DNA of 32,361 nt. Origin: Candidatus Pelagibacter sp. Lineage in GTDB: Bacteria; Pseudomonadota; Alphaproteobacteria; Pelagibacterales; Pelagibacteraceae. Positions within the stretch are counted from its first letter, which is position 1, and each line of letters opens with the position of its first letter. Below are positions 1 to 32,361 of this stretch, in pieces. The position numbers and the translations under genes are program-made. The notes below the pieces were generated by a model, which saw only the letters and a program-made list of their open reading frames with translations, was not told where the DNA came from and made no database searches. Location: assembly GCA_002692055.1 (NCBI GenBank), contig NZJW01000009.1, positions 14,322-46,682 on the forward strand, read 5' to 3'.

Positions 1-771
1 TATTTTGACTTTTATTTTCTCACCAACAGTAAACATATCATTTAGATTTGATATTTTTAAATGTGATACTTCAGATGAATGAAGTAGACAGTCTAGACTT
101 TCAATAGAAACAAAACAACCATATGATTGTACTGCCTTAATAATACCCTCTACTACTTGACCAACTTTATAATTTTTGATCACCTTTTCTTTATTCTTAT
201 TTTTTTCTTGCTCTAATATTTGTCGTCGACTTGCAATGACATTCATTCTTACATTATCAATTTTAATTATTTGGAATTCCATTGGTTTGTTCATATATTC
301 ATTCATATTTTTAATTGGTTTATCTGCAACTTGGCTGTTAGGACAAAATGCAAAGATTCCAAATATTTCCACTACTACTCCACCTTTCACAGTGTTTTTA
401 ATTATACCACTTACTTTTTCCTGTTTTTCAAATGCTTGCTCTATTTTTTTCCATGATTTTGCTCTTCTTGCTTTCTCGATACTTAAAACAATGTTACCAT
501 TACGATCTTCGGTACGTTCTAAAAAAACCTCTATTTCTTTTCCTTCTTCTAATGCGTCTAGTTCAGCATGAGGAATTTCGTTTCTATCTACGATACCACT
601 AGATTTTGCCCCTTTAATAAAAACATGAACATATTTGTCATCTATTTTCTCAACAGTTCCTGAAACAATCGTATTATCTTTTAAAATAATATTATCTAGG
701 TTTTTGGATATTAATTTTGCAAATTCTGAATTTGTATCTTGATTATATACTTTTAAATTGTCTGTACTCAC
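1..771 (-). CDS. rpsA: 30S ribosomal protein S1, partial (3' end outside window)
   Basis: Ribosomal protein S1 binds mRNA on the 30S subunit and promotes initiation, especially on messages lacking a strong Shine-Dalgarno. The reverse-strand reading is open from 771 to the left edge, about 257 codons. It shows tandem S1/OB-fold repeats, with cores such as VSGTVEKIDDKYVHVFIKG, VSGIIKNTVKGGVVVEIFG and VEGIIKAVQSYGCFVSIES; the third repeat is cut by the window edge. The start is GTG at 771-769. An in-frame TGA lies five codons upstream with no ATG or TTG between, so GTG is forced. The G of the upstream aroA-cmk stop is the first base of this GTG (TAGTG), implying translational coupling. The order aroA, cmk, rpsA is common in proteobacteria. 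Confidence 0.95.
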   Translation of the reverse strand, partial: MSTDNLKVYNQDTNSEFAKLISKNLDNIILKDNTIVSGTVEKIDDKYVHVFIKGAKSSGIVDRNEIPHAELDALEEGKEIEVFLERTEDRNGNIVLSIEKARRAKSWKKIEQAFEKQEKVSGIIKNTVKGGVVVEIFGIFAFCPNSQVADKPIKNMNEYMNKPMEFQIIKIDNVRMNVIASRRQILEQEKNKNKEKVIKNYKVGQVVEGIIKAVQSYGCFVSIESLDCLLHSSEVSHLKISNLNDMFTVGEKIKVKI

Positions 772-2768
772 TAATATTTTTTTATCTCACTTTCTATTAA
801 GAAAATTATTTTCTCTAGTGCGCGCGATATACCATTTGTGTCATTCCGTATCAATATAGAATCCTTCGTTTTTTTTAAAGGACTCACTTTTCTGGATTTA
901 TCCGCTAAATCCCTAGCTTTTAGAGCATTTAAAATCTCTTTAAAATCAACATTTTTCTCATCTTTCTTGGCTTTTAATTCTAAAAATCTCCTTTTCGCTC
1001 TGAGTTTTACTTTAGCATCTATGAATAATTTAATATCGCTAAAGCCTGCAGGTAATATTTTCGAACAAATATCCCGGCCACCTACAAGAATAATTGAATT
1101 CGGACAGTCAAAAATAAGTTTTCTTTGAATAGGTATAAGCACCTTTCTAATTGAGGGAATTTTAGCAATTTTAGAGACATAATTTGATATACGTATTGAG
1201 TGCAGTTTTGGATTTTGCAGTTTAGTAATATTGACGCTATTTAAACAATTTATTAAATATTTAATATTAATTTTCCCTCCCCCAGTATTGAGGTGAGCTA
1301 AAGTTAAATAACGATAAAGCAAACCAGAGTCTATAAATACAGCTTTAGATTTATAAAATTTTTTTATTTTCCTTAAGATACTCGACTTACCTGTAGCTAC
1401 CCCACCATCACATGCCACTATAATTTTTTTATTTTTTTTAAACCGTAAACTTTTTACAGTTTGTAAAAAATTAGGAAATGAAACTTTTGTACAATTGAAA
1501 TCATTTATTTGAATCTTTTTTCGCGATACAGATGATAAAACATAAAATGCCATGGCAATTCTATGGTCTTTGTTAAAATTCTTAATAATCGGAATATTAT
1601 TAGAAAAAAATTTTTCTGTTATACCATTTATGAATAAATTATCTTTATTCCTCTTAACATTAGCACCACATAATTTTAAATTCTCAAACATCGTTTTTAA
1701 TCTATCTGACTCTTTAAACTTGAGTTCGCTTAAATTATAAAATTTACTTTCTGTTTTACAAAATAAAGATACTATTAATAATACTGGAACTTCATCGATT
1801 ATACTGGCAACTTCATCAGGTTTAATATCAATACCTTTCATATTAGGTGTGTAAGATGCAATTACATCGCCAGTAGGCTCACCATAGTATTGATGAATGT
1901 TTTCAAATCTAATTTTTGCTCCCATTTTCTTTAGAATTTTTATAAACCCAATTCGATAAGGATTTAAACAGACATTTTTTATTCGTATCTGACTTCCTTT
2001 AGTCAAAATAGCTATACAAATTAAAAATGCACTTGAAGAGGCATCAGAAGGAATTTTATAATTATTAATTGGCTGCAAATACTGCTTGCCCAATATTTTA
2101 ATAGTTTGTTTATTTTTATTTTTGAATACTTTAATAGGATAATTTAAATATTTTAATAATCTTGAGGTGTGATCTCTTACATTGCTAGGACATTCAATAC
2201 TAGTTTCACCAAAACTTATGATACCAGCAAGTGTTGCCGCACTCACCATTTGAGCAGATGGTTTGTCAATTTTAATCTCTGCTTGTATACAATCGGAGTG
2301 TCCCTTAATATTTATTGGTAAAAAATTTCTTTCAGTTGGGCATATATTCATTAAAAACTCTTTTAGAAATTCTAGTCTATAAGGTCTTTTAGTTAGACTC
2401 TGATCCCCGACTATTTTAGCATAAATTTTAGAACCCGCGATAAGCGGTGTTAATAAACGAAATGTAGTACCACTATTTCTACAATCAATTAATAACTTCT
2501 TTTTAGTCTCAGGGTAACCAATTCCTAAACCATAAACAGTATATTGATCTTCATATTTGTTGACTTTTATACCAAGTTTTTTAATAGCCATTATTGAAGT
2601 TAAGGCATCTTCTCCAGGCTGATAAATTTTAACTTTCGATATTCCATGAGCAATACTAGCAAATAATATTGATCTAATGGTAAGGCTTTTATCTGAGGAT
2701 AATCGTACAGAACCTTTAATACAAATATCATTGTCTGGTATCAATTTATTTAATTTTTTAATTGCCAT
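771..2768 (-). CDS. Fused EPSP synthase / cytidylate kinase (AroA-Cmk)
   Basis: One 665-residue ORF carries two enzymes. Residues about 1-440 are 3-phosphoshikimate 1-carboxyvinyltransferase (shikimate pathway: shikimate-3-phosphate plus PEP to EPSP). Visible motifs are SSDKSLTIRS near the N-terminus, NSGTTFRLL (about 96-104), PSAQMVSAATLAG, DEVPVL (about 325) and DHRIAMAF (about 400). Residues about 445-665 are cytidylate kinase (CMP/dCMP phosphorylation), with P-loop GGVATGKSS (about 453-461), FIDSGLLYR, GGRDI and SRKVSPL. The P-loop differs from the usual GPSGSGKG style but keeps GKS. In most bacteria these are adjacent separate genes; here no stop or internal restart separates them. Fused versions are known in databases, so the fusion is unusual rather than unique. 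The ATG at 2768 is 54 bp from the divergent FYDLN-acid gene. Confidence 0.93.
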   Translation of the reverse strand: MAIKKLNKLIPDNDICIKGSVRLSSDKSLTIRSILFASIAHGISKVKIYQPGEDALTSIMAIKKLGIKVNKYEDQYTVYGLGIGYPETKKKLLIDCRNSGTTFRLLTPLIAGSKIYAKIVGDQSLTKRPYRLEFLKEFLMNICPTERNFLPINIKGHSDCIQAEIKIDKPSAQMVSAATLAGIISFGETSIECPSNVRDHTSRLLKYLNYPIKVFKNKNKQTIKILGKQYLQPINNYKIPSDASSSAFLICIAILTKGSQIRIKNVCLNPYRIGFIKILKKMGAKIRFENIHQYYGEPTGDVIASYTPNMKGIDIKPDEVASIIDEVPVLLIVSLFCKTESKFYNLSELKFKESDRLKTMFENLKLCGANVKRNKDNLFINGITEKFFSNNIPIIKNFNKDHRIAMAFYVLSSVSRKKIQINDFNCTKVSFPNFLQTVKSLRFKKNKKIIVACDGGVATGKSSILRKIKKFYKSKAVFIDSGLLYRYLTLAHLNTGGGKINIKYLINCLNSVNITKLQNPKLHSIRISNYVSKIAKIPSIRKVLIPIQRKLIFDCPNSIILVGGRDICSKILPAGFSDIKLFIDAKVKLRAKRRFLELKAKKDEKNVDFKEILNALKARDLADKSRKVSPLKKTKDSILIRNDTNGISRALEKIIFLIESEIKKY

Positions 2769-26628: not shown

Positions 26629-27457
26629 GAGTCAAAATATTCTAGTTGCTGGTTGTATTAGAAATGTTGGAAATAAACTAATTAAAGATTTAGAAATTGT
26701 TAAAAAAGCAATACATAATTTTAAGAAAAAATCTTTTTTATTAATAGAGTCAGACTCCACGGATAATACAAGAGATGTATTATCAGAATGTGAACAAAAA
26801 ATTGAAAATTTTAAAAGTATACCATTAGGTAAAATTAGTGATCAATACAAGTTTCGAACTGAAACGATTGCTTATTGTAGAAATATTTATGTTGATAGAA
26901 TTAATAATGACGATACTTATAAGGATATTGATTTAGTTTTAATTGTTGATCTTGATGGAATTAATAATTTATTAAACCATGAGTCCATATCTAGTTGTTT
27001 TGAAAAATATAATTGGGATGCGGTCTTTGCCAATCAAAAGAATGCTTATTATGATATATTTGCTTTAAGACATGAATATTGGTCCCCAACAGATTGTCGA
27101 CAAGAATTAGATTTTTTTGAAAAATACAGGAAGACCAGATCATTTAATTATTGGCATTCAATTTATTCAAAAATGATCGAGATACCGGAGACCAGTGAAT
27201 GGATCAAGGTAAACTCAGCATTTGGTGGGGCTGCAATTTATAAAAAGCAATGTTTTAAAAATAATTTTTACGTTGGAAGAATTAAAGATAAAGAGATTTG
27301 TGAGCATGTTAAATTTAACGAGAATTTAGTAAAAAAAGGTTTTAATTTGTATATTTGCCCTAAATTTATTAACTCTAACACAAATGAACATACCAAAAAG
27401 AAAATGTCACTTAAATATAGAATCAAATTTGCAATACAGAGTTTGTTCGTAAAATGA
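26618..27457 (+). CDS. GT-A-like glycosyltransferase with VDLDG motif
   Basis: A 279-aa protein without a signal peptide. It opens with NILVAGCIRNVGN, then LLIESDSTDNTRDVLSE, YCRNIYVD, and LVLIVDLDGINN, in which Asp111-x-Asp113 is a DxD-type metal/nucleotide-sugar motif. Later come WDAVFANQKNAYYDIFALRH, SAFGGAAIYKK and CEHVKFN. The overall order resembles fungal GT62 (Anp1/Mnn9) or GT69-like mannosyltransferases, but this is motif resemblance from memory, not a search. It overlaps the preceding gene by 11 bp and the GT9 gene by 4 bp (ATGA), so it belongs to the same operon. It probably uses a GDP- or UDP-sugar made by the cassette; specificity is not readable. Confidence 0.6.
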   Translation: MKIESQNILVAGCIRNVGNKLIKDLEIVKKAIHNFKKKSFLLIESDSTDNTRDVLSECEQKIENFKSIPLGKISDQYKFRTETIAYCRNIYVDRINNDDTYKDIDLVLIVDLDGINNLLNHESISSCFEKYNWDAVFANQKNAYYDIFALRHEYWSPTDCRQELDFFEKYRKTRSFNYWHSIYSKMIEIPETSEWIKVNSAFGGAAIYKKQCFKNNFYVGRIKDKEICEHVKFNENLVKKGFNLYICPKFINSNTNEHTKKKMSLKYRIKFAIQSLFVK

Positions 27458-28371
27458 AAAAAATACTAATTATTCAAAAAAGAATAGGTATTGGGGATTT
27501 TTGTGTTTTTCTACCACCTATTAATGAGATTTCAAAACTTTTCAGTAAATATCAAGTTAATGTTATGACCAAAGAAAGAACACAGGCAAAAGAGTTTATA
27601 TTTGATCATAATTATATTAATGAAGTGTTTTATGCTCCTGATTTAAATATTTTTAAAGAGAGCATATGGATTTATAATCATATCAAAAACTTAAAATATG
27701 AGAAATGTTTCATTTTTCATTATAGTTTAAGATACTTTTTATTAGCAAAATTAGCAGGAGTAAAAAATGTGTTTTCATATGGATTTTTTAAAAAAAATGA
27801 AAATATAGTAAAAAAGTCTCAAGAATTTATTAATGAAAAATTAAATTATAAAAATAATAATTTTGAATTTCATATTAATTATAATGAAAATGTTCAAAAA
27901 AAAGAGCAAATAGTTTTTGGGATTGGAGGTAGCGGTAGAGATAAAAAGTGGGATATTAATAACTATATTGAATTAGCAAAATTATTAAATCAAATTAAAA
28001 AATTTAAATTTGTACTAGCAGGTGGTAAAAATGAAGCTGAGGATGCAAATTATATTATAAAAAATTTAAAAAATAATAACATTGAAGCAATCTCAGTATG
28101 TGAATTAAATATAAAGTCTACTTTACCATTTTTAATGGGTTCAAAGTTATATGTTGGAAATGATACTGGTTTTATGCATCTTTCAGGATGTTTTGGAGTT
28201 CAATCCTTTGGTCTTTTTGGACGAACGTCTATAAATTATTCGTCATATAATAAAAATATTGTACCAATATCTTTACCAGAATCTCAAATGAGTAATATAT
28301 CTAGACCTGACGCAATTAATTTTATAGAGCCAGAATACGTACTTAATTTTCTGCAATCTACTAATTTATAA
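27454..28371 (+). CDS. GT9 family glycosyltransferase (heptosyltransferase-like)
   Basis: A 305-aa GT-B protein of family 9. N-terminal [20 protein letters not shown] is the acceptor-domain loop of LPS heptosyltransferases. The C-terminal domain has [22 protein letters not shown], ... [13 protein letters not shown], and [18 protein letters not shown] (the DTG..H-A/S motif). It might add heptose or another sugar to the LPS core; GT9 proteins in streamlined marine alphaproteobacteria are not all heptosyltransferases. It ends 5 bp before tRNA-Ser and closes the cassette that begins after lepA. Confidence 0.85.
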
Positions 28372-28375
28372 ATAT

Positions 28376-28465
28376 GGAGAGATGGCCGAGTGGTTTAAGG
28401 CGCACGCTTGGAAAGCGTGTAAAGGGGCAACTCTTTCGCGGGTTCGAATCCCGCTCTCTCCGCCA
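28376..28465 (+). tRNA. tRNA-Ser (GGA anticodon)
   Basis: A complete 90-nt serine tRNA. The acceptor stem GGAGAGA pairs with TCTCTCC, G73 follows and CCA is encoded. The anticodon stem-loop CACGC-TTGGAAA-GCGTG gives anticodon GGA, which reads UCC/UCU. There is a long class II variable arm (AAAG...CTTT) and a canonical T arm GCGGG-TTCGAAT-CCCGC. It lies directly after the GT9 gene. Its 3' three-quarters are repeated downstream (29109-29179). Confidence 0.97.
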
Positions 28466-28469
28466 TTTT
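28399..28469 (+). repeat. 71-bp direct repeat, copy 1 (within tRNA-Ser)
   Basis: Runs from the D-arm 3' edge of tRNA-Ser(GGA) to four bases beyond CCA. It matches 29109-29179 at 70 of 71 positions (28458 C versus 29168 T), offset by exactly 710 bp. A tRNA 3' end repeated at both edges of a small segment is the classical signature of site-specific integration at a tRNA. Confidence 0.9.
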
Positions 28470-28512
28470 TCTCAATATTGAACAATCTATTTTATATAAA
28501 AATATACTGCTG

Positions 28513-28529
28513 GGCGGCGCTGTGACGGC
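28513..28529. repeat. GC-rich 17-bp direct repeat, copy 1
   Basis: GGCGGCGCTGTGACGGC in a very AT-rich setting. It matches 29028-29044 at 16 of 17 positions, in the same orientation, offset 515 bp. It lies just past the 3' end of the lipoprotein gene (which reads leftward). Its base composition differs sharply from the flanks. Origin unknown. Confidence 0.8.
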
Positions 28530-28560
28530 GCTAGCTAACCCTAAAAGCTTATTTATTTCT

Positions 28561-28977
28561 TTATTTTATCTTTTTGCAATTCTTAAAATAATATGGACTC
28601 GAAGAAGTTCGTCTAAAACCATACTCCCAAGTTTCTTTATCGTAAGTTTTGATGTAAGAGATATATTCTAATGTTCTGCCAACACGATTTATCCACGTGT
28701 AAGTATAATCCTTTGTTAAAATATTTATTCCATCTGATGACTTAATTTCATAAACTATTTTGGTAGGATATTTTAATATACTACCCATCATTCCAACGGC
28801 TTTGAAAGTTAAAGTCTTTGTAACGGGGTCAATGTCAAAAACTACATCTATAGTTTTGTTTGTTCCACCTTTACCTTTGCATTTAAATATTTCTTTTTTA
28901 AGATCTACTATTTTATTGCTATCACCACAGCCACTTAATAACACACCCAGAGCCACGATCCCGAAAAGCCTTTTCAT
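28561..28977 (-). CDS. Small putative lipoprotein, hypothetical
   Basis: A 138-aa protein of unknown family. The N-terminus is a lipoprotein signal: MKR, a hydrophobic core, then LLSGC with Cys17 as the lipidation site. The mature part is short and mostly beta-like (IDVVFDIDPVTKTLTFKAVG; YTYTWINRVGRTLEYISYI), with two further Cys residues (Cys33 and one in YYFKNCKK near the end) that might form a disulfide. It is the only gene between the two tRNA-Ser copies and is opposite in strand to its neighbours. An AT-rich inverted repeat lies 18 bp upstream of its ATG. Expected location is the outer or inner membrane, periplasmic side. Confidence 0.75.
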   Translation of the reverse strand: MKRLFGIVALGVLLSGCGDSNKIVDLKKEIFKCKGKGGTNKTIDVVFDIDPVTKTLTFKAVGMMGSILKYPTKIVYEIKSSDGINILTKDYTYTWINRVGRTLEYISYIKTYDKETWEYGFRRTSSSPYYFKNCKKIK

Positions 28978-28994
28978 TATTGTTAATTAAATTA

Positions 28995-29015
28995 GCAAAT
29001 ATATAATTTATTTGC
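28995..29015. promoter_or_regulatory. Inverted repeat upstream of the lipoprotein gene
   Basis: GCAAATA-tataatt-TATTTGC, perfect 7-bp arms with a 7-bp loop, 18 bp before the lipoprotein ATG. The AT-rich centre could include a -10 element. It is a possible operator or leader hairpin; no regulator is suggested. Confidence 0.35.
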
Positions 29016-29027
29016 GACTAAAACCTT

Positions 29028-29044
29028 GGCGGCGCTGTGGCGGC
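29028..29044. repeat. GC-rich 17-bp direct repeat, copy 2
   Basis: GGCGGCGCTGTGGCGGC, one mismatch from 28513-28529, same orientation. With copy 1 it brackets the lipoprotein gene and its upstream region, nested inside the tRNA-Ser repeats. Confidence 0.8.
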
Positions 29045-29108
29045 AATAGAAACAAAAAAATCAAAATTTATACTTAAAAACCGTTGAATTTATTGGCCCT
29101 AGGTTAGT

Positions 29109-29174
29109 GGCGCACGCTTGGAAAGCGTGTAAAGGGGCAACTCTTTCGCGGGTTCGAATCCCGCTCTTTCCGCC
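29109..29174 (+). pseudogene. Truncated tRNA-Ser (GGA) copy
   Basis: The 3' part of tRNA-Ser(GGA), from the end of the D arm through the anticodon stem-loop (TTGGAAA), variable arm, T arm and CCA. It has one mismatch (29168 T) in the acceptor strand. The 5' part is missing or badly degraded: upstream sequence TTATTGGCCCTAGGTTAGTGG only faintly recalls the D-arm region and cannot pair with TCTTTCC. It cannot make a cloverleaf, so it is not a working second tRNA. The matching block continues five bases past CCA to 29179, with shared T's. Confidence 0.85.
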
Positions 29175-29250
29175 ATTTTGATGGAAAATTTGCGCTAAGC
29201 AAAGTATTTATATTTTCTTATATTTTAAAATATGAGACTTAGGTGAATTA

Positions 29251-30072
29251 ATGACTAATCTTGCTATACTAATTCCAACACATCGTCTGGACCTAAATAG
29301 TAATGAAAAAAAAACATTAAATAAGCTTACAGAAAATTATAATAAAGAACATATTTATTTTATACTTCCAGAAAAGATTAAAAATACGCAAAAAACATTT
29401 CATATAAATTGTTCCTATTTTGATGATTATTATTTTTCTAGTCATAGAAATTACAATAAACTTCTACTTTCAAAAGAATTTTTTGAAAGATTTTTAAATT
29501 ATAAAAAAATTTTAATATATCAACTGGATTGTTACCTTATAAAAAATTTTGATTATTTAGATATGTTTTCAGAGTATGATTTTGTTGGCTCTCCGCATAT
29601 AAATAAAAAGAAAAAAAATTTTAATGGTATTTTAAATGGCGGATTATCCTTAAGATCTGTTAAGCCCTCACTTGAAGTATTAAATTCATCAAGTATATAC
29701 TTATCTTATATAACTATACTCTCTTTAATTAGATATTTTAGAAGTTTAAATAGATTAAAACATTTTATGACTTTTATTTTTAAAATATGCAATTTATTTT
29801 TAAAAAAATTATTTAATAAGAAGTCTGAGGCTAAATTCAACGCAATATTTTTAGAGATTTTTCCAAATTACTTTAATGAAGATATTTTTTGGAGCTTATT
29901 TTCAGTCATGTATAAAAAAAACTTTAACGTTATAGACCCGAAGGTAGCTGTCAAATTTGGTTTTGATAAAGACCCAGAGGAATTATTTATCTTGAATAAT
30001 AAAAAACTTCCTTTTGGATGTCATAATTGTTGGAGTGAAGAAAATAATAAATTCTGGAAAAAATATTTCTAA
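29251..30072 (+). CDS. DUF5672-like putative glycosyltransferase
   Basis: A 273-aa protein with motifs of the DUF5672 family, found in polysaccharide loci: LAILIPTHR at the start, ILIYQLDCYLI (a DxD-like acidic position), EYDFVGSPHINKK, NGGLSLRS, NEDIFWSLFSV, and C-terminal LPFGCHNCW. These suggest a GT-A type fold, but no enzyme activity is established for the family to my knowledge. A Shine-Dalgarno-like AGGTG (29241-29245) precedes the ATG. It lies just past the truncated tRNA and may belong functionally with the 24389-28371 cassette. Its 3' end overlaps the convergent serine hydrolase by 4 bp. Confidence 0.7.
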   Translation: MTNLAILIPTHRLDLNSNEKKTLNKLTENYNKEHIYFILPEKIKNTQKTFHINCSYFDDYYFSSHRNYNKLLLSKEFFERFLNYKKILIYQLDCYLIKNFDYLDMFSEYDFVGSPHINKKKKNFNGILNGGLSLRSVKPSLEVLNSSSIYLSYITILSLIRYFRSLNRLKHFMTFIFKICNLFLKKLFNKKSEAKFNAIFLEIFPNYFNEDIFWSLFSVMYKKNFNVIDPKVAVKFGFDKDPEELFILNNKKLPFGCHNCWSEENNKFWKKYF

Positions 30073-31172
30073 CTCTTTTCAAAAATATCATAAAATTTTT
30101 TTATTAAATTTACCGCTCTTGTATCAGCACCCATCCCTTGATTAATCTTTCTCGTAACATAAGATATACCAATACCGTTTATTGGATCGCCAAAGCCAAG
30201 TGAACCACCCCAGCCATTATGTCCAAAATTTTCTTTATTTTTCCCAAACATCCAACCACCCCGTAAAATGAAACCAGAGTACGTCCACTTTATAGGTAGT
30301 TTCAAGCTTTGATCTATTTTTGATTTTGCATCAATCAAGATTCTTTTAAATTTCTCCTGCTTAATAATTACACCTTTATTAAATTTAAAATCATTTGCTA
30401 ATATATCATATAGTTTTGCAATCGATAATGCTGATCCATGACCACCCATTGAGGGAACACCTGCTGTTCTCCATTCTCTTGTATTATAATATAAAATGTC
30501 ATGTTTTGGATTATTGAATGCATTAAATTCTGTCGTTTTTTCATTTATTATTTTTTTATCATCTATCAAGTCAGCTACATTTTTGAAATCACTTTCTTCT
30601 AGTCCAAAAATAAAATTAATATTAAATTTGTGTTTAAAATTTTTTTTAAAATATTCATTAAGGGTTTCACCTGTTATTTTTCGTATCAAATTTTCTACTA
30701 AATAACCGTGGGTTTTTGCGTGGTAAAAGGTTTGAGTACCAGGTTTATGATCTGCAATTTGATTTTCTAATAATTCTATGATTTTATTATAATTTAACAA
30801 ATCTTTATTTTTTAACTTTTGTTTAAATCTATAAACTCCTGATTGATGTGATAGTACGTGCTTTACTTTGATATCTTTATTAAATTTTGGCCAGTAAAAA
30901 GAGACATTTTTATCAATATCTAATTTTCCATCATTCACAAGTTTGGCAACGCAGGCTGCGTAAATCCCCTTGCTTAATGAAAAAGTATTCACAATAGTGT
31001 TTTGATCCCAAAGTTCATTATTATTTTTAAACCCTCCATGTAAGTTAATTATTATATTTCCATTTTTGACAACGGAAAAACTTGCTCCATTTTCAATTTT
31101 ATCTAGAAAATAATTTTTAAAAATATCTTTGATTTCATTAAATTCTGGAGAACAAATTCCGCCAATTTCCAT
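30069..31172 (-). CDS. Beta-lactamase-fold serine hydrolase
   Basis: A 367-aa member of the serine beta-lactamase-like/class C esterase group (EstB-like). The nucleophile motif FSLSK gives S-x-x-K at Ser65-Lys68. The second motif is YHAKTHG (Tyr150), the Y-H-A form common in esterase-like members rather than the YxN of true beta-lactamases. The third region is FGHNGWGGSLGFGDP. Activity is more likely esterase or peptidase than antibiotic cleavage. No signal peptide is seen, so it is probably cytoplasmic. Its ATG follows the stop of the E2 gene with no gap, so it is likely the downstream member of a 2-oxoacid dehydrogenase operon. Confidence 0.85.
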   Translation of the reverse strand: MEIGGICSPEFNEIKDIFKNYFLDKIENGASFSVVKNGNIIINLHGGFKNNNELWDQNTIVNTFSLSKGIYAACVAKLVNDGKLDIDKNVSFYWPKFNKDIKVKHVLSHQSGVYRFKQKLKNKDLLNYNKIIELLENQIADHKPGTQTFYHAKTHGYLVENLIRKITGETLNEYFKKNFKHKFNINFIFGLEESDFKNVADLIDDKKIINEKTTEFNAFNNPKHDILYYNTREWRTAGVPSMGGHGSALSIAKLYDILANDFKFNKGVIIKQEKFKRILIDAKSKIDQSLKLPIKWTYSGFILRGGWMFGKNKENFGHNGWGGSLGFGDPINGIGISYVTRKINQGMGADTRAVNLIKKFYDIFEKS

Positions 31173-32361
31173 TTAACTCGCGAGCTTAAATGCAAAATTG
31201 TGGCCCATGCTCACTTTTAGGTCTTGACAAAATCTTGCTGCTTCAGCGCCATCGATCATTCGATGATCATATGATAATGAAATTGGCATCATTTTCCTTG
31301 GAGCGAATTTACCATCAACATAAACCTGTTTTACTTCAGTTTTTCCAATACCTAGGATACATACTTCAGGTAAATTTACGATTGGTGTAAAAAAGCTCCC
31401 GCCTATACCACCAAGACTTGATATGGTCATCGAGCCTCCGAAAAACTCTTTTTTATCTATTTTAAGATCTTTACATTGCTTACTTGTTTTTCTGAGTTCT
31501 TTTCCTAAAGTAAGGATATTTTTTTTATCTACGTTTCTAATTTTTGGTACCATCAATCCATGGGGAGTGTCTACTGCAATTCCAATATGAAAATATTTTT
31601 TATAAATTACCTCATCTTTTTCAGGATTTAGTGATGAGTTAAAATTAGGATATTTTTTCATCGCGTTGACTAGAGCTTTCATAATAAATGCAAGCGGCGT
31701 TACAGGTATTTTTTCTTTCGTATTTAAATTTACTAAATTCTTTCTAAAATCCTCCATTTCAGTAATATCAATTTCATCATGTTGAGTAACATGAGGAATA
31801 CTATTCCATGCCTTGACCAAATGAGGTCCAGATAATCTTTTAATTCTAGAAATTTTTTGAATGTTTATATCGCCAAATTCAGAGTGCTCATATGGTAAAT
31901 CTAATTTTTCCTGATTCTTAACTATATTTGTTGTTTCAGGCATGTTGCTATCCTTTATATAGTTTTTAATATCTTCTTTCTTTACTCTACCACCACGACC
32001 TGATCCTTGAAGTTTATTTATATCAACACCTAGCTCTCTAGCAAATTTAAGAGTATTTGGACTTGCTCCAGTAGAGTCAGAAAGTTCTAGTTCAGGACCT
32101 CTTTTATTCTTATATGATTCTGACTTTACTTTTTCATTTTGAGTGCTGTCTAAGTTAGTTTCTGACTTTACCTCAACTTTATTACTAATCGAATCTATTT
32201 CTAAAACTGCATCGCCTTCGGATACTTTATCGCCTATTTTCAAATATATATTGAGTATCTTACCAGACAAAGGAGAGGGAACTTCCACACTGGATTTATC
32301 ACTTTCTAGAGTGATTAAAGGATCACCTTTATTAATTTCATCTCCATTTTTTACTAAAACT
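31173..32361 (-). CDS. aceF: 2-oxoacid dehydrogenase E2, lipoyl acyltransferase, partial (5' end outside window)
   Basis: E2 core of a 2-oxoacid dehydrogenase complex, probably pyruvate dehydrogenase. The reading frame is open through the right edge. Near the edge is a lipoyl domain with the lipoylated Lys in LESDKSSVEV. Then come an Asp/Glu/Lys-rich linker, the peripheral subunit-binding domain (SPNTLKFARELGVDINKLQG, GRGGRVKKEDI), a second linker, and the catalytic acyltransferase domain ending with SYDHRMIDGAEAARF, which holds the active-site His and the DG motif. A GTG at 32288 is an internal Val codon of the lipoyl domain, not the start. The stop TAA directly precedes the serine hydrolase ATG. 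Choice of aceF over the 2-oxoglutarate E2 is from the domain sequence style and is not certain. Confidence 0.85.
   Translation of the reverse strand, partial: VLVKNGDEINKGDPLITLESDKSSVEVPSPLSGKILNIYLKIGDKVSEGDAVLEIDSISNKVEVKSETNLDSTQNEKVKSESYKNKRGPELELSDSTGASPNTLKFARELGVDINKLQGSGRGGRVKKEDIKNYIKDSNMPETTNIVKNQEKLDLPYEHSEFGDINIQKISRIKRLSGPHLVKAWNSIPHVTQHDEIDITEMEDFRKNLVNLNTKEKIPVTPLAFIMKALVNAMKKYPNFNSSLNPEKDEVIYKKYFHIGIAVDTPHGLMVPKIRNVDKKNILTLGKELRKTSKQCKDLKIDKKEFFGGSMTISSLGGIGGSFFTPIVNLPEVCILGIGKTEVKQVYVDGKFAPRKMMPISLSYDHRMIDGAEAARFCQDLKVSMGHNFAFKLAS

Follow-up and report, generated by a model that had tools for sequence, protein, structure and literature searches.

Why does the 3' end of a tRNA gene stand twice around one small gene in a genome of Candidatus Pelagibacter? 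The window, by which we mean the whole stretch of 32,361 nucleotides that was analyzed, contains a single tRNA-Ser(GGA), located by both ARAGORN and Rfam. The original prediction, made from the sequence alone, reported that the 3' end of this gene is duplicated 710 bp apart with the 5' part missing from the second copy, and this is confirmed: 71 nt recur with one mismatch (99%; 78 nt at 95%), and the copy begins at tRNA nucleotide 17-24 (29102-29109). The copy is not a functional tRNA, because the mismatch falls in the acceptor stem. A BLAST search of the whole genome with the repeat (E ~3e-30) returns one other partial match only, to a different tRNA-Ser on another contig. The locus is arranged as follows.

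27454-28371, plus strand: GT9, neighbor gene
28376-28465, plus strand: intact tRNA-Ser(GGA), the insertion site and attL side (ARAGORN, Rfam)
28400-28416, plus strand: putative crossover core in the anticodon arm, GGCGCACGCTTGGAAAG
28512-28529, plus strand: left arm-type repeat pair GGGCGGC-GCTG-TGACGGC, period 11, 46 bp past CCA (putative function)
28561-28977, minus strand: cargo gene for a predicted lipoprotein of 138 aa, lipobox LLSGC, no Pfam family
29027-29044, plus strand: right arm-type repeat pair TGGCGGC-GCTG-TGGCGGC, period 11, 57 bp ahead of the tRNA copy (putative function)
29102-29175, plus strand: partial tRNA-Ser copy (nt 17-90), the right end and attR side, with one acceptor-stem mismatch
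29251-30072, plus strand: DUF5672, neighbor gene
30069-32288, minus strand: genes beyond DUF5672

The segment had been described as about 640 bp with one lipoprotein gene and no integrase. It measures 636 bp, and its ORFs include a single credible one, that of the lipoprotein, and no integrase. The further statement that this gene reads against all flanking genes holds for GT9 and DUF5672, but the genes beyond DUF5672 lie on the minus strand as the lipoprotein gene does. No relatives of the lipoprotein are detected in the seven other genomes of the genus or in viral contigs, and its structure prediction (mean pLDDT 50) is unusable. Elsewhere in the window, a 665-aa ORF (771-2768, minus strand) resembles, judged by eye, a fusion of EPSP synthase (AroA) and cytidylate kinase (Cmk).

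Within the genus of the window the tRNA-Ser site varies. Two congeners (G006 and G002) have a lone tRNA-Ser with the downstream core gene directly after it, which is the empty site. In a third (G004), tRNA-Ser is followed by one different gene, encoding a trypsin-like lipoprotein protease, and then by a tRNA copy; the cargo at this position is thus exchanged. Two more (G001 and G003) carry a lone tRNA-Ser with other genes alongside. At the G003 locus (L022, G003:C22) about 11 kb of glycan genes separate tRNA-Ser from the DUF5672 gene, which lie close together in the window, and both sides of tRNA-Ser are therefore variable. Empty sites, other cargo and a lipoprotein without relatives all support the proposed integration at the tRNA. 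The original prediction would have been abandoned if all close relatives shared the two copies and the lipoprotein, and G006, G002 and G004 differ. Its other escape, an assembly duplication, is rejected, as many genomes, single-cell genomes included, show this layout around other cargo. It had also placed the island exactly in a glycan cassette. A glycan cluster is indeed present here, but the location is partly incidental, because it is the tRNA that the elements track, and this gene has other neighbors in other genera.

The wider family was surveyed through 60 tRNA-Ser loci, 13 of them chosen for a visible second copy, together with loci from a pattern scan of GTDB genomes. Cassettes are found at tRNA-Ser in at least 20 of 297 sampled Pelagibacteraceae/SAR11 genomes, many of them single-cell genomes, and this count is a lower bound; four further genomes show the left end only. 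The 27 measured cassettes span 441-2001 bp and contain one to three genes, and their tRNA copies begin at tRNA nt 9-22, mostly at 17. Tandem cassettes occur as well, with two each at loci L055 and L060 and at least two at L318. At L048 (5040-6000, G027:C4) the first cassette is followed by a second left end with an arm pair, another tandem array, in which small repeated 81-aa genes reach the contig end. The cargo is varied and includes lipoproteins and other exported proteins, a 579-aa exported repeat protein of autotransporter-like look (no Pfam match), a protein resembling methyl-directed restriction enzymes, and an MrcB_N/NOV_C protein.

Just inside the ends of these cassettes lies a second pair of repeats, which the original prediction did not mention. 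The pairs consist of GC-rich 7-bp units with a period of 11. The left-end expression matches 25 of 27 left ends, compared with 0.27% of random 60-nt windows; the arm expressions were composed after inspection of the sequences, and the last one for the right arm is loose. Among 49 loci without a second tRNA copy, four match the left-end expression and look like remnants. The spacing is rigid: the left pair begins 45-46 bp past CCA in all 25 matched cassettes, and the right pair ends 65-66 bp ahead of tRNA nt 17 in 23 of 27 (57 bp in the window). The inner units of left and right pairs agree better within an element than between elements (0 of 100,000 permutations; 155 of 100,000 for the eight most distinct elements). 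A strict arm pattern, GGNCGTCRTATGGNCGTC, has 10 matches in the 297 genomes, every one of them at a tRNA-Ser cassette, while the reversed control has none. In the genome of the window the motif is confined to the two cassette ends. Since fixed spacing and matched ends are expected of integrase arm sites, we infer that the pairs are arm-binding sites of a tyrosine integrase.

The pairs might instead regulate expression of the cargo and have no role in recombination. The left repeats do lie just ahead of the start codon wherever the cargo gene reads forward, in most cases, and in the window they are preceded by a promoter-like match. However, the number of promoter matches in the window is not above chance, matching repeats follow the genes at the right end as well, the left version varies together with the right, and the motif appears at both ends of an integrase element (G014, below). 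We regard a purely regulatory role as very unlikely.

The same ends bear on the suggestion that the segment is decayed, a large island that integrated once and was deleted down to one gene. Small size, the absence of an integrase and a mismatched tRNA copy would all fit such a history. It does not readily account for many independent cassettes with complete ends of identical type, similar sizes, mostly 55-92% coding content and unrelated cargo, nor for congeners that are empty or hold other content. Decay is highly improbable here; this part of the original prediction gives way to membership in a family of small elements whose ends are conserved and rigidly spaced.

An integrase is encoded at the same tRNA in two genomes of other genera. 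In G118, tRNA-Ser and a left arm pair (TGTCGTC-GGTG-TGTCGTC) are followed immediately by the gene for a 328-aa integrase. The only close relative of this integrase in the 297 genomes (47% identity) belongs to G014, where a 5.3-kb satellite-like element occupies the same tRNA-Ser and encodes proteins with matches to the families of integrase, primase/helicase and small terminase. The left arm (GGACGTC-GTGT-GGGCGTC) and right arm (TGACTCC-ACAT-GGACGTC-AACAG) of the G014 element have the form found in cassettes, with the right arm farther from the tRNA than cassette right arms. By eye, the short N-terminal domain of both integrases looks arm-binding; the G118 integrase has no Pfam arm-binding match. 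Further tRNA copies in G118 are on another contig than the integrase element, and their linkage spans a contig gap. Such elements are rare at tRNA-Ser, being present in 2 of 297 genomes, one of them interrupted by a contig end, and in none of the window's genus; a motif scan of the first 66 loci revealed no integrase beside tRNA-Ser. With their shared tRNA and end motif, these elements answer the original call for larger islands with integrase and lend support to its reading of a minimal, trans-mobilized island.

Other candidate movers were considered and rejected. The remaining island integrases of the family are located at tRNA-Met, Arg, Leu, Cys or Glu. Weaker relatives of the G118 integrase (30-35%) also reside at other tRNAs, and the two that were examined have a similar gene order. 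Satellite-like elements with an integrase and a large primase-like ORF were noted near tRNA-Met and tRNA-Glu (L334, G093:C4; L335, G216:C1). Where a tyrosine recombinase is detected in a cassette-bearing genome at all, it is usually a single one, about 317 aa long; a recombinase of this kind is carried by most sampled genomes of the SAR11 family (for example L124 1462-2412, minus strand, G000:C6, and L119 1459-2409, minus strand, G032:C3). The 317-aa protein of G032 is related to plasmid site-specific integrases and falls far under the XerC and XerD cut-offs. It scores 36 bits against the integron-integrase cut-off of 265 bits, and it has a close relative in the window's genome (86% complete). 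That relative, the single tyrosine recombinase of this genome, was rejected as the mover: it resembles plasmid-type site-specific integrases, its G032 counterpart is under all three cut-offs (XerC, XerD and integron), and neither lies at this tRNA. Exact-pattern scans of viral contigs, an insensitive method, gave no match to the tRNA-Ser core, the arms or the integrase, and the tRNA 3' end by itself produced matches that were unspecific.

The absence of a dedicated integrase from most cassette genomes, where the recombinase is of another type or none is detected, could mean that the cassettes owe their spread to homologous recombination with DNA that the cells take up. The tRNA repeats of 66-74 bp, or flanks of greater length, would then provide the homology, with no integrase active today and the ends mere relics of an element integrated long ago. 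In most pairs the copy and the host tRNA do not differ, so the copy could play this part. Against this, a 2001-bp cassette is 99.25-99.5% identical in genomes of three species (G234, G137 and G069), whose flanks are 77-82% identical where alignable. A near-identical cassette in flanks of about 80% identity indicates recent movement between species, as judged from these alignments, and long flanks, which stayed behind, do not explain it. Nor does homologous recombination need arm spacing fixed to 1 bp or the matching of left and right arms, and live-looking integrase elements occupy the same site. We consider this route unlikely. The segment in the window is, in our assessment, probably an integrative cassette that is non-autonomous and depends for its movement on satellite-type integrases acting in trans.

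The point of strand exchange may be read from the repeats themselves. In cassettes the part of the tRNA that recurs extends from about nt 17-25 to nt 90, in the G014 element from nt 1 to nt 40, and because the two overlap in the anticodon arm the crossover was placed there; strand exchange probably occurs in this arm. The anticodon arm is one of the crossover classes in Islander's list. With a crossover there, the tRNA would regain its 3' half from a cassette but its 5' half from the G014 element. The G004 locus (L018 9076-10423, G004:C4) raised the alternative of a crossover near the 3' end of the tRNA: its element ends and tRNA copy resemble genus g5, and its intact tRNA matches that of the congener G003. 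That case fits a crossover near the 3' end better than one in the anticodon, while the G014 element indicates the anticodon arm instead.

The cassette can be pictured as a single gene flanked by a pair of attachment ends that could still be recognized by an integrase, the tRNA core with the left arm sites on one side and the right arm sites with the tRNA core copy on the other. Insertion would be specific to tRNA-Ser(GGA); the strands would probably be exchanged in its anticodon arm, which would leave the tRNA gene intact with a displaced 3' copy at the far end. The missing enzyme would be a tyrosine integrase of about 328 aa that acts in trans, or in cis where a tandem neighbor encodes it. 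Its donors may be related elements with the same tRNA and end motif, such as the one in G014. Movement in trans and the route between cells are what we infer from this arrangement.

The cassettes are close to two known kinds of element. The first are additive cassettes of flexible genomic islands, described, in the portions available, for fGI1 of Ca. Actinomarinales (PMC7771536), fGI-2 of Methylophilaceae (PMC10872708) and fGI1 of Alteromonas (PMC4119200). These too vary among strains in presence and content, and that of Actinomarinales also sits in a sugar-coat island. The SAR11 cassettes share with them a conserved tRNA target with a partial tRNA repeat at the far end, and presence in some relatives with absence or different content in others. 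They differ in their size of 0.4-2 kb, one to three genes, matched arm-like end repeats and a candidate source of integrase; the available portions of the three papers describe neither such ends nor the SAR11 tRNA-Ser. The second are CIMEs, cis-mobilizable elements defined as decayed ICEs or IMEs (PMC5704250). Like these, the window cassette lacks integration and transfer genes and keeps attL and attR, whose att function is putative here, and tandem placement with integrase-bearing elements is possible. Unlike CIMEs, the SAR11 cassettes have likely relatives that look satellite-like and not conjugative, and they recur as a whole family.

Other kinds are more distant. Tycheposons resemble the cassettes as cargo-bearing elements at tRNA genes of streamlined marine bacteria, but in the part of PMC10872708 that describes them they measure 4-200 kb and carry a tyrosine recombinase; the cassettes measure 0.44-2.0 kb, and that of the window has one lipoprotein ORF and no tyrosine recombinase. 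Phage satellites of the PICI-like type combine an integrase with replication and packaging genes, as the G014 element does, whereas the window cassette has no integrase, primase/helicase or small-terminase gene. Integron cassettes offer a functional analogy only, in single-gene cassettes, arrays and a trans-acting tyrosine recombinase. In SAR11 a tRNA and arm-type repeats make up the site, the integrases found belong to the phage type and are extended at the N-terminus, and no IntI scores above cut-off. A literature search, with most subscription journals outside its reach, returned no description of such cassettes in SAR11.

SAR11 bacteria are among the most abundant in the ocean and are supposed to harbor few mobile elements. 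A family of tiny, sharply bounded cassettes without integrase at one tRNA would give them a concrete route for exchanging surface and defense genes. Searching for the paired-repeat pattern near the tRNA 3' end can reveal more cassettes, and which integrase and which satellite move them becomes testable. We give an even chance to the broader proposal that tRNA-Ser(GGA) acts as an integron-like capture platform, at which integrases of phage satellites, working in trans, exchange a large stock of one-gene cassettes for surface or exported and anti-phage proteins between SAR11 species. If true, it would provide gene turnover for genomes supposed to be poor in mobile elements.
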